From Beijerinckiaceae bacterium (GTDB taxonomy: Bacteria > Pseudomonadota > Alphaproteobacteria > Rhizobiales > Beijerinckiaceae): a DNA stretch of 64,000 nt. A program made the translations under genes and the position numbers. The DNA lies in NCBI GenBank assembly GCA_021324915.1, contig JAJPIC010000024.1, positions 1-64,000 of the forward strand. The letters run 5' to 3'. The notes beneath the pieces are model-generated. The model searched no databases. It was not told the origin of the DNA and saw only the letters and a list, made by a program, of their open reading frames with translations. Shown here in pieces: positions 21,407-62,064 of the stretch; positions within the stretch are counted from its first letter, which is position 1, and each line of letters opens with the position of its first letter.

Positions 21407-21413
21407 AATTGCC

Positions 21414-21781
21414 AGCCGGCCTATAAGCCGGGTTCAGTATGGCGCGCGAAAGCGCGCGTGATGGCCATTCATCTGGGACGGCCGTTACCGGCCGCCTCAA
21501 GCAACCAACCCGGACGCCGGTCCGGAGACGGACCTGCGGCTCTTGCGAGCCGCGTGCGCCCCTATTCGGTCTTGCTCCCGGTGGGGCTTGCCATGCCGCG
21601 CATGTTGCCATCCGCGCGGTGCGCTCTTACCGCACCGTTTCACCCTTGCCTGCCGAGCGGCAGGCGGTCTGCTTTTCTGTGGCGCTTTCCCTGGGGTCGC
21701 CCCCGCCGGACATTTTCCGGCACCGTGTCTCCATGGAGCCCGGACTTTCCTCCGCTTTGAGCGGCGGCCATCCGGCCGACT
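21414..21781 (-). ncRNA. rnpB: RNase P RNA, bacterial class A
   Basis: Reverse complement reads AGTCGGCCGGATGGCC...GAGGAAAGTCCGGGCTCC...ACAGAAAAGCAGACCGCC...GGTGAAACGGTGCGGTAAGAGCGCACCG...GCAAGCCCCACCGGGAGCAAGACCGAATAGGGG...CCCAGATGAATGGCCATC...GAACCCGGCTTATAGGCCGGCT. The 5' and 3' ends pair as P1. Confidence 0.97.
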
Positions 21782-21886
21782 GGCCGAATCGAGATAGGCG
21801 CGACGCGCGCCGGCGTCAACTTGCCATAATTCTGAGGGATTTGCGGACACCGCCAAGCCGCAACATGCCGGTGCGAGGGGAAGAAT

Positions 21887-31275: not shown

Positions 31276-31624
31276 CGGGTGCGACCATGATCAATCCTTA
31301 GAGCCTCGAGCGCGAGATCACAAAGAGCGATCGTTCCGATCGAATTCCCGGCTCTTTATTCCAGCGCGTCGGTCGCGCAACGAGCGCAATGCAAACGCGA
31401 GGCACGCGCCAGCCTTGACAAGCCGGGCTCACTTACCTAGTTCGCGAAGTGTCGGACGAATCACGCATTCGTTCGGCGATTCTCAACTTCGATGTGTCAT
31501 GGGCAGTAGAAGCTTCGGCGGCTCGATCGCGGCTCTATCCGCGCGCGAGGCGCCATCCAAAATTTCAATCGCCCGCGGTCTCGGAGGCCGCGTGAGAGGC
31601 GCTCGAGCCTAGCTCCTGCCTGCC

Positions 31625-31663
31625 GCTCACCTCCGGCCGCGGTACAAGGCAGAGGAGGTGAGC
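31625..31663 (+). promoter_or_regulatory. RBS-sequestering hairpin upstream of a 49-aa small ORF
   Basis: gctcacctcc (31625-31634) pairs perfectly with ggaggtgagc (31654-31663), which contains the SD for ATG 31665. Confidence 0.7.
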
Positions 31664-31664
31664 C

Positions 31665-31814
31665 ATGAAGAAGCTCACAATTGTCCGCGCAGACATGCCG
31701 GCCTGCGCCGCGCCCTCGCGGTGCTCCGGGCCGGCCAAGCCGCGCCTCGTATGTTTCTGGAAACTGGATGCGGGCCATCTGGCCTGTTCGTGGTCGGCCC
31801 GAAAGCCGAAGTAA
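31665..31814 (+). CDS. Candidate 49-aa small protein / leader peptide
   Basis: ATG with strong SD gaggaggtgagcc; MKKLTIVRADMPACAAPSRCSGPAKPRLVCFWKLDAGHLACSWSARKPK*. Below the ORF-track length cutoff. Confidence 0.5.
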   Translation: MKKLTIVRADMPACAAPSRCSGPAKPRLVCFWKLDAGHLACSWSARKPK

Positions 31815-31854: not shown

Positions 31855-31929
31855 ATGAAGGACGACCCCAGTAGGCCTGCCGGCTCAGCAAGTCGGCAGG
31901 CGGCACCCCGACCGGAAAGGCAAGAATAA
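31855..31929 (+). CDS. Candidate 24-aa leader peptide
   Basis: MKDDPSRPAGSASRQAAPRPERQE*; ggagag 5' of ATG; lies between the 49-aa ORF and the transporter. Confidence 0.35.
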   Translation: MKDDPSRPAGSASRQAAPRPERQE

Positions 31930-31973
31930 GCAGGCGAGGCTGAGCCGCATGGCTCCCTCCTTGCGGCAGGAGG
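31875..31973 (+). promoter_or_regulatory. Candidate structured leader with competing base pairings ending in an SD-sequestering hairpin
   Basis: A: GCCTGCCG 31875-31882 / CGGCAGGC 31894-31901. B: CGGCTCAGC 31881-31889 / GCTGAGCCG 31939-31947. C: GCCGCA 31944-31949 / TGCGGC 31962-31967. D: CCTCCT 31956-31961 / AGGAGG (SD) 31968-31973. Confidence 0.55.
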
Positions 31974-31979
31974 CGAGTC

Positions 31980-34358
31980 ATGAACCAACACGTCAACCTT
32001 GGCAGCGCCGTGCTCGATGAGGCGCATGTCGGCGACATCCGCGGCGCGCTCGGCACGATCCGCGATCATGGCCCGCGCACGAGCTGGAAACAGCGCTTCC
32101 AAACGCTCCTCGCCATCCTCGGTCCTGGCCTCATCGTCATGGTCGGCGACAATGACGCCGGCGCCTTCGGCACCTATACGCAGGCCGGCCAGAATTACGG
32201 CACCTCGCTCCTCTGGACGCTGCTGCTCCTCGTCCCGGTGCTCTACGTGAACCAGGAAATGGTTCTGCGCCTCGGCGCGGTGACCGGCGTCGGCCACGCG
32301 CGGCTCATTCTCGAACGGTTCGGCAAATTCTGGGGCGCTTTCAGCGTCATCGACCTCTTTCTCTTGAACGGCCTCACGATCGTCACCGAGTTCATCGGCA
32401 TTTCGCTCGGGCTCGGCGCACTCGGCATGCCGAAGGCGATTGGCGTTGCGGTTGCCGCGCTCGTCATCATGGGGGCGGTCAGCACCGGCGACTTCCGCCG
32501 CTTCGAGCGCTTTGCGCTGGCGCTCTGCGCCGGCAGCCTCCTGCTCGTCCCGATCTTCCTGATGGTCCATCCGCCGATGGGTCGGATCGCGCATGATCTC
32601 CTCGTGCCGCACGTGCCGGCGGGCGCCAAGCTCGGCGACGTGATGCTGCTCATCATCGCCATCGTCGGCACCACGATCGCGCCGTGGCAACTCTTCTTCC
32701 AGCAGAGCTACGTTATCGACAAAAGGATCACGCCGCGCTTCATCAAATATGAGCGGCTCGATCTCTGGTTCGGGATCGTCATTGTCGTCATCGGCGCGGT
32801 CGCGATGATGGGCTTTGCGGCGGCGGCCTTTGCCGGCCGGCCCGAATTCGGCAATTTCACCGATGCGGCGGGTGTCGCCGCCGGGCTTGGCGCATACGCC
32901 GGCAGAGTGCCGAGCGTGCTGTTCGCCATTGCGCTCATCGATGCGAGCATCATCGGGGCCGCCGCCGTTTCGCTGGCGAGCGCTTACGCGATCGGCGATG
33001 TCCTTTCGCTGAAGCACTCGCTGCATCGCAGGCCAACGGACGCGAAGGGTTTTTATGCCGTCTATTGCGGCCTGATCCTTCTTGCCGCGGCTCTTGTTCT
33101 CAGCCCCGGCACGCCGCTCGGCCTGCTGACCAACGCCGTCCAGGCGCTTGCCGGCGTGCTCCTGCCGAGCGCGACGGTCTTCCTCCTGCTTCTCTGCAAT
33201 GACAGGGCGGTCCTTGGTCCGTGGGTCAACACGCGCGGCATGAATCTCTTCACCGGCGCGGTGATCTCGGTGCTCGTGACCTTGTCCGTCATTCTCACCG
33301 TCTCGGTGCTGTTTCCGGACTTTGTGAACGAGACTTTCATCCTCGCGGTCTTCCTCACGGGCCTGGCGATCGCGGGCCTGGCGAGCCTCTTTGCTCTCTC
33401 GAAGGGGCGCTCGGGCGCGCCCGCATTCGCGCCGCTGAGCGAAGCGCAGCGCAATTCCTGGCGGATGCCGCCGCTTGACCAGCTCGCGCCCATGCGCCTA
33501 TCGCGAGCGAGCCGTCTGTGGATGGGTGCGCTGCGGCTCTATCTCGTGCTCGCCGGCGGGCTTGTTCTGACGAAGATCGTCAGTTTCGCGCTGGGGCAGG
33601 CCGCGCCTGGATTCGGTGCCGGGTTCTGGCCGAAGCTGGGGGAAGCCATGGCTGAAAACATCGATGTGCCGGCGTTGATCGGAACCTTGGGCGCGCTCGC
33701 CATTGCGCTCGTGCTCGGCACTCTGATCGGCGCCGAGCGGCAATATAGGCAGCGCACGGCAGGTCTGCGCACCAATGCGCTCGTCGCAGTCGGCGCCGCG
33801 GGCTTTGTGCATCTCGGCATGGCGCTCAACCAAACGGCCGGAGCCGGCCAGGCGCTCGCCTATGTGATCTCCGGTATCGGCTTTCTCGGGGCCGGGGTGA
33901 TCATGAAGGAAGGCACCAATGTGCGGGGCCTCAATACTGCGGCAACCCTCTGGTGCTCGGCGGCAGTCGGCGCCTTCGCTGGCGCGGGCTATGGAATCGA
34001 GGCGGGCCTGCTCACGATTTTCGTTCTCGCGGGCAATACGTTCCTGCGGCCCATGGCCGAATTCGTCAACCGCATTCCGATCCGCAAGGATGCCGCCGAG
34101 GCGACCTATCAGATCCATGCGACCGCGGATGGCGGGGACCGCGACGAGGTGCGCGATCTCCTCGCCGACACGCTGGAAGCGAAGAACTACCGGCTGCGCG
34201 AGCTCGAAGCCATCGAGCGCGGCGACGACGAGGTGGAACTTGTCGCCACATTGGCGGCAACGAGCGCCGATCCGGCCGAGCTCGATGCGGTCGTGAGCGA
34301 ATTGGAAAAGGCCAAGGGCGTCGCGCATGCGACTTGGACCTCGACTGCGCTCGACTGA
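31980..34358 (+). CDS. NRAMP-like divalent metal transporter fused to a C-terminal MgtC/SapB domain
   Basis: NRAMP part GPGLIVMVGDNDAGAFGTYTQAGQNYGTSLLW and IVGTTIAPWQLFFQQS. MgtC part ALVLGTLIGAERQYRQRTAGLRTNALVAVGAAGF...ISGIGFLGAGVIMKEGTNVRGLNTAATLWCSAAVG. Confidence 0.93.
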   Translation: MNQHVNLGSAVLDEAHVGDIRGALGTIRDHGPRTSWKQRFQTLLAILGPGLIVMVGDNDAGAFGTYTQAGQNYGTSLLWTLLLLVPVLYVNQEMVLRLGAVTGVGHARLILERFGKFWGAFSVIDLFLLNGLTIVTEFIGISLGLGALGMPKAIGVAVAALVIMGAVSTGDFRRFERFALALCAGSLLLVPIFLMVHPPMGRIAHDLLVPHVPAGAKLGDVMLLIIAIVGTTIAPWQLFFQQSYVIDKRITPRFIKYERLDLWFGIVIVVIGAVAMMGFAAAAFAGRPEFGNFTDAAGVAAGLGAYAGRVPSVLFAIALIDASIIGAAAVSLASAYAIGDVLSLKHSLHRRPTDAKGFYAVYCGLILLAAALVLSPGTPLGLLTNAVQALAGVLLPSATVFLLLLCNDRAVLGPWVNTRGMNLFTGAVISVLVTLSVILTVSVLFPDFVNETFILAVFLTGLAIAGLASLFALSKGRSGAPAFAPLSEAQRNSWRMPPLDQLAPMRLSRASRLWMGALRLYLVLAGGLVLTKIVSFALGQAAPGFGAGFWPKLGEAMAENIDVPALIGTLGALAIALVLGTLIGAERQYRQRTAGLRTNALVAVGAAGFVHLGMALNQTAGAGQALAYVISGIGFLGAGVIMKEGTNVRGLNTAATLWCSAAVGAFAGAGYGIEAGLLTIFVLAGNTFLRPMAEFVNRIPIRKDAAEATYQIHATADGGDRDEVRDLLADTLEAKNYRLRELEAIERGDDEVELVATLAATSADPAELDAVVSELEKAKGVAHATWTSTALD

Positions 34359-61833: not shown

Positions 61834-62064
61834 CTCCTCTTCCCGTGCCGGCCGGGGCCGGCATGAAGCGGAACCAGGAATGGTTGCGAACTGCCACGGC
61901 CCTTTTAGTCCCTTGTTTAACGTGGCGGCAAGCCGGCCGGCCCAAATGACCACGTAAGCTCTGCATAACCCCTTGGCAGGCCGTTCACAAGCAAAAATGC
62001 GGCTTTCTCAGCCGCGGACAAGACCATAGATTGCGTTGTCTTTCCCAAGACAGAAATCGCGCCC

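Follow-up and report, generated by a model that had tools for sequence, protein, structure and literature searches.

Enteric bacteria are known to sense Mg2+ through leader peptides (mgtL, mgtM/P, mgtQ), and riboswitches for Mg2+ occur typically in Gram-positives. The subject here is a stretch of 64,000 nucleotides (nt) from a Beijerinckiaceae bacterium (contig JAJPIC010000024.1, positions 1 to 64,000; hereafter the window), in which, as judged from sequence, a conserved leader of about 530 bases precedes a putative Mg2+ importer gene and carries three predicted small open reading frames (ORFs) and two hairpins predicted to hide Shine-Dalgarno (SD) sequences. Several described systems resemble it. 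In mgtQ-mgtB of Salmonella, an acidic short ORF and alternative anti-SD pairing control the SD of a Mg2+ transporter (PMC8092293), and when Mg2+ is low, ribosomes translating MgtL drop off at its EPDP motif (PMC11282234). The mgtM and mgtP ORFs of mgtCBR belong to tandem transcription attenuators whose signals are ATP and charged tRNA-Pro (PMC3641672), and rv1805A of Mycobacterium tuberculosis is a conserved short upstream ORF (uORF) of unknown role, with proline at position 7, which lies together with an M-box upstream of an operon containing mgtC (PMC12810186). M-box riboswitches precede NRMT genes in other phyla (PMC4072509), and three changes are named for NRMT proteins, threonine for alanine, alanine for methionine, and tryptophan for histidine (PMC8806188).

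The Beijerinckiaceae leader is probably governed in the MgtL/mgtQ manner, by Mg2+-responsive ribosome progress on a leader ORF, in two tandem modules. Its elements follow in the order promoter, uORF0, SD-hiding hairpin, uORF1, uORF2 with helix A inside it, hairpin D, and transporter, as listed here.

31415-31420, forward strand: promoter -35 element TTGACA; 17/17 representatives have TTGAC 79-106 nt before uORF0
31499-31612, forward strand: uORF0, 37 amino acids, MGSRSFGGSIAALSAREAPSKISIARGLGGRVRGARA; its stop codon sits in the loop of a small hairpin
31592-31596, forward strand: GTGAG, the module-1 SD mimic, a conserved copy able to pair with anti-SD1
31626-31662, forward strand: hairpin hiding the uORF1 SD, CTCACCTCC (31626-31634) with GGAGGTGAG (31654-31662)
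31665-31814, forward strand: uORF1, 49 amino acids, with a conserved C-x-W ... D ... G-x-L-x-C-x-W peptide
31855-31929, forward strand: uORF2, 24 amino acids, MKDDPSRPAGSASRQAAPRPERQE (MKDDPSRPAG...), with an acidic-Pro-Ser(AGT)-Arg-Pro start and its own SD
31875-31885 with 31891-31901, forward strand: helix A, 11 base pairs, inside uORF2
31936-31959, forward strand: alternative hairpin and competitor of D, SD mimic GAGGCTGAGCC (31936-31946) with the anti-SD (31951-31959)
31948-31982, forward strand: helix D, 14 base pairs, hiding SD AGGAGG (31968-31973) and the transporter ATG
31980-34358, forward strand: gene for an NRMT-type NRAMP protein fused to MgtC, a putative Mg2+ importer (PF01566, PF02308, PF21770)

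Each module would combine a uORF and, near its stop, a hairpin with an SD mimic; the anti-SD would come next and then the SD belonging to the following ORF. Ribosome progress on the uORF would set the partner of the anti-SD, either the upstream mimic, leaving the SD open, or the SD itself, which is then hidden. In low Mg2+, ribosomes would pause on uORF2 or leave it soon after its start, at the acidic-proline-serine(AGU) motif against helix A; the uORF2 stop would not be reached, the mimic would capture the anti-SD during transcription, and the importer would be translated. In ample Mg2+, ribosomes would complete the uORF and cover the mimic, and hairpin D would form. We infer that the uORFs are translated, that Mg2+ is the signal, that a pause occurs, and that control runs in the direction described.

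Comparison among species bears out the conserved uORFs and serine codon, helix A, the hairpins that hide SDs, the pairing of mimic with anti-SD, and a link to Mg2+ importers. Alphaproteobacterial relatives have a common leader plan, which the window follows at 31415, 31499-31612, 31665-31814, 31855-31929, and 31948-31982. The comparison set comprised 103 distinct leaders, with 23 representatives below 80% identity, and pairings were assessed by a cognate-arm test in which each 5′ arm was paired with its own or with another species' 3′ arm. Helix D (-21.2 kcal/mol) was found in 22/23 representatives with many compensatory changes and a cognate-arm z of -5.8. Mean z against shuffled sequences was -2.2 for D, -3.2 for the SD1 hairpin, and -2.7 for A, compared with -0.55 for seven other gene starts in the window.

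The competitor of D has a predicted energy of -12.1 kcal/mol and an occupancy of 0.89 when the window's transcript is cut before the SD. Across species, in transcripts ending just short of the SD, the anti-SD was modelled to pair at 0.72 with the strand of its own leader around the uORF2 stop, upstream of it, versus 0.61 with strands of other species (z 3.7, p 5e-5). A modelled ribosome on the uORF2 stop lowered mimic:anti-SD pairing from a mean of 0.73 to 0.46, with drops of more than 0.3 in 10/23 representatives, and one near the uORF2 start did not lower it.

An early proposal for this region was a different switch. The first-pass annotation of 31875-31979 had described helices A, B (31881-31889 with 31939-31947), C (31944-31949 with 31962-31967), and D as overlapping and competing, in a possible attenuator or riboswitch of no recognised class. 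All four are exact reverse complements, the ATG stands at 31980, and the minimum free energy (MFE) fold of 31860-31990 contains A, extended to 11 base pairs, and D, extended to 14 and reaching the ATG. Covariation, which the annotation had proposed to seek in all four, was found for A and D; B, which would correspond to helix 1:2 in trp/mgtQ terms, was mildly positive in the cognate-arm test (z -3.2), a signal that is at best suggestive because an unrelated control pairing reached z -2.5, and C was unsupported (z -1.5). In the full leader, modelled occupancies were 0.99 for A, 0.97 for D, and 0.00 for both B and C, with B at 0.17 or less even when A was blocked. B and C are also absent from the MFE fold, the competitor of D being 31936-31946 with 31951-31959. 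Folding models reject a simple thermodynamic switch among the four helices, and the scheme as first written is highly improbable. Its core fared better, since an SD-hiding terminal hairpin does close a regulatory leader, which is a unit of several uORFs and not a bare riboswitch. The annotated region is the 3′ end of this leader, which starts about 430 nt further upstream, and the annotation had overlooked an ORF, 31855-31929 and with an SD of its own, that contains helix A and the 5′ arm of B. Perfect 8-mer inverted repeats at the region are in the top 2.7% of window positions by density, and the folding energy of 31860-31990 is mildly unusual (z -1.69; 11/200 shuffles equally good).

The uORF2 motif M-x-D/E-G/D-P-S-R-P and its position are kept in 32 leaders, with a length of 31-42 amino acids in most relatives versus 24 in the window, and the stop lies 39-57 nt upstream of the transporter in 22/23 representatives. 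Among the 23 representatives, 91.8% of the cells in helix A are paired, and 7/8 of its pairs show changes on both sides, a result reached by 0/500 shuffles; pairing falls to 37-50% when the helix is slid along the alignment. It was also recovered by RNAalifold, and its cognate-arm z is -7.5, with -4.4 for the hairpin at the uORF2 stop. The serine of the motif is written almost always as AGT, which accounts for 4/456 serine codons in the representatives' transporter genes yet for the codon-6 serine in 19/20 uORF2s that have serine at any of codons 2-8 and for the codon-3 serine in 15/15 uORF0s with a serine there; the species are not independent of one another, so that a p-value for the contrast is not to be read literally, but the contrast is nevertheless large. 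Leader peptides in actinobacteria and in Beta- and Gammaproteobacteria also use this codon.

Several observations weigh against control by ribosome progress. In the window itself, the modelled effect of a ribosome varies with the assumed footprint, from 0.81 to 0.84 or from 0.89 to 0.35, and in the complete leader at equilibrium D is modelled to form whatever the ribosome does, so that any switch would have to be kinetic, during transcription. The leader is missing from a few NRMT relatives and from one mgtE relative, and the uORF2 motif is less acidic than that of MgtL. Past their first codons, uORF0 and uORF2 show weak codon-position bias, so RNA-level and peptide-level constraint on these ORFs are not yet separable, and one relative (L147, MSDGLSWP) has helix A and AGT but has lost the proline.

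The last two points would also suit an RNA aptamer, namely a riboswitch for Mg2+ or Mn2+ formed by the conserved uORF2 start and helix A in which the open frame is incidental, as would the strong conservation of helix A and the keeping of AGT instead of synonymous AGC or TCN. Such an aptamer is unlikely, as ATG, GTG, and TTG alternate as start codon at a single site preceded by an SD, each of the four bases occurs third in the proline codon, the leaders of mgtE genes keep acidic-Pro-Ser-Ser-Arg peptides and not the same RNA, and there is no Rfam match. The M-box model (RF00380) matched neither the window nor the genome above its cut-off, while Bacillus subtilis and Lactococcus lactis controls did match, and no other Rfam class reached its gathering score in the leader, the best being M23 (E 0.32, 19.9 of 41.2 bits); the absence of a known class, as first annotated, thus holds for Rfam.

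Module 1 repeats the layout of module 2. The start of uORF0, ATGGGC[A/T]GTA (MGS...), and its stop position are kept across 30 leaders, and the stop lies within a small hairpin in most relatives. The hairpin hiding the uORF1 SD (-20.6 kcal/mol) gave a cognate-arm z of -6.0, against +2.2 for a coding control. Pairing of the mimic with anti-SD1 in transcripts cut before SD1 was significant across species (z 2.5, p 0.008), with a modelled occupancy of 0.64 in the window; a fixed-window test of the upstream E1 strand against anti-SD1 gave no signal, and it was the truncated-transcript version that was positive. In relatives, uORF1 encodes 43-99 amino acids, usually with CxWxxDxxxGRLxCxW, and shows third-position bias (codon-position counts 166/195/312) and a synonymous excess. 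Its conserved peptide may be a small functional protein and not merely a leader ORF. Assignment of uORF1 to a known protein family was rejected, with no Pfam or NCBIfam match.

As the uORF2 start lies about 10 nt past the uORF1 end in most relatives and every SD lies in a hairpin, the uORFs could instead act by plain translational coupling, delivering ribosomes that open the SD hairpins and reinitiate, with no metal sensing by a peptide. This is quite unlikely, for it leaves unexplained the conserved peptide start, the AGT codon, helix A, the mimic:anti-SD pairing, and the occurrence before three Mg2+ importer families only, and the 39-57 nt between uORF2 and the transporter would seem long for reinitiation.

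Transcription of the leader is predicted to start near 31450. The -10 element appears weak, since a strict sigma-70 scan for two hexamers found no promoter site at the leader, and the conserved -35 element at 31415-31420 lies upstream of everything, and not where a start downstream of 31901, incompatible with the first proposal, would place it.

The regulated gene had been annotated as NRAMP-MgtC, which the three domain matches bear out, and its product is a putative NRMT-type Mg2+ transporter. The nearest solved structure to the NRAMP half is EleNRMT (7qia, E 7.5e-48; next chain 8e-18), with which it has an identical GTTIAPW stretch and an aligned NDAG motif. All three NRMT changes are present in helix 6 (Met to Ala, Ala to Thr, His to Trp), together with the helix 1 aspartate, and the Asn-to-Gly site is alanine. 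No report of this NRMT-MgtC leader was found in open-access full texts. Elsewhere in the window, well above Rfam cut-offs, lie a SAM-alpha riboswitch (61884-61963, reverse strand) and a bacterial class A RNase P RNA (21408-21783, reverse strand).

Searches of other genomes make the leader's link to Mg2+ strong by association with Mg2+ importers. A strict uORF2-start pattern occurred in 18/199 family genomes at 20 places, 18 of them at or by an NRMT gene; the other two were a chance coding match and a match at a contig edge, and a reversed control gave 1. A looser DNA pattern of the motif gave only chance matches across the class, its reversed control giving more. A covariance model of uORF2 and helix A (R1), run against 398 genomes of the order, recovered NRMT leaders and one mgtE gene (L148) preceded by MMDEGPGCP... 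and a perfect SD hairpin. Most of the weak R1 matches in order and class were GC-rich stems within coding DNA. Close mgtE relatives have MEEGPSW or, in three cases, MDDPSSR peptides, and an SD hairpin at a similar distance; L173, one of these relatives, has two further uORFs upstream; a more distant mgtE relative has no leader. Pattern searches in DNA added two more mgtE genes with a leader ORF (L212, L214) and a single case of a Mg2+-translocating P-type ATPase of mgtA type (L225), preceded by MDDYSSRPAM..., AGTAGG, and an SD hairpin, so that three unrelated families of Mg2+ importers have this kind of leader ORF. Among 30 inspected loci with the ATGGANGANNNNNCNAGTNG pattern, a Mg2+ transporter came next in 5, two of them already known. 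Many matches to this pattern were rejected as lying inside long ORFs or as repeats of a GGAGGAGTGCCCGAGTGG stretch, which looks like a tRNA-Ser gene.

Related peptides occur more widely. The M-box was matched in the leaders of three actinobacterial homologues (L042, L047, L103), and four actinobacterial NRMT leaders (L042, L080, L094, L047) have a uORF with an SSPGHSRP-like peptide and AGT codons, which in L042 and L047 lies behind the M-box. In position these uORFs resemble the mycobacterial rv1805A (PMC12810186). Burkholderiaceae NRMT leaders (L057, L065, L066, L073, L099) open with MPDPEPCSC-like peptides of MgtL-like composition, and their relatives have MPDSDSYPLC with AGT codons. In Bradyrhizobium sp. 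BTAi1 (L038, 3179-3281), a uORF2-like ORF (MDEHPSRPAVAASGAGIP...) follows the NRMT gene and precedes a gene whose product looks like an outer-membrane barrel protein, a placement by which the uORF2 module may also control a gene other than a transporter.

As ORFs of its kind stand before two other, unrelated sorts of Mg2+ importer as well, uORF2 is probably a member of a family of Mg2+-responsive leader ORFs not described before. More tentatively, we suggest that this family is widespread and senses Mg2+ by the ribosome itself, which would pause at an acidic-proline-serine motif with a rare AGU codon against a conserved hairpin; it would be common to NRMT, MgtE, and MgtA in Alphaproteobacteria, and related peptides would belong to actinobacterial M-box leaders and to Beta- and Gammaproteobacteria. 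A leader ORF common to three unrelated importers offers a ready hypothesis for Mg2+ sensing at NRMT, MgtE, and MgtA in Proteobacteria other than enterics, and may account for the orphan conserved uORF beside actinobacterial M-boxes. Unusually, selection apparently favours AGU over the other serine codons at this site of uORF2.

Set beside the described systems, the locus has the marks of MgtL/mgtQ-type control, namely an early acidic and proline-containing leader ORF before a Mg2+ transporter and, by computation, anti-SD pairing that excludes the SD hairpin. As in mgtQ-mgtB, a short ORF with early acidic residues accompanies alternative pairing of an anti-SD against an SD-hiding hairpin; mgtQ, however, has 8 amino acids and lies between two genes, whereas here three uORFs occupy a 5′ leader before NRMT-MgtC, uORF2 contains a hairpin, an SD mimic lies close to the uORF stop, and there is a Ser-AGU/SRP motif (PMC8092293). 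The leader ORF of MgtL likewise opens with acidic and proline residues before a Mg2+ transporter, but acts through Rho-dependent termination and EPDP, whereas here SD hairpins are visible and the motif is D/E-G/D-P-S-R-P (PMC11282234). The MgtL, MgtQ, and uORF2 peptides are different and too short to compare, with acidic-proline composition alone in common, so the resemblance is one of layout and not necessarily of descent. Like that of rv1805A, the leader is Mg2+-linked and has a conserved short uORF upstream of mgtC, although the rv1805A leader has an M-box aptamer and the window's genome has none (PMC12810186). The regulated protein is of the NRMT kind, with EleNRMT as nearest structure (PMC4072509, PMC8806188); NRMT elsewhere has M-box leaders, whereas here it is fused to MgtC behind a leader that is not an M-box. 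The tandem layout recalls mgtM/mgtP, where two leader-ORF modules also stand in series before an MgtC-containing operon, with translational hairpins and different peptides here (PMC3641672).
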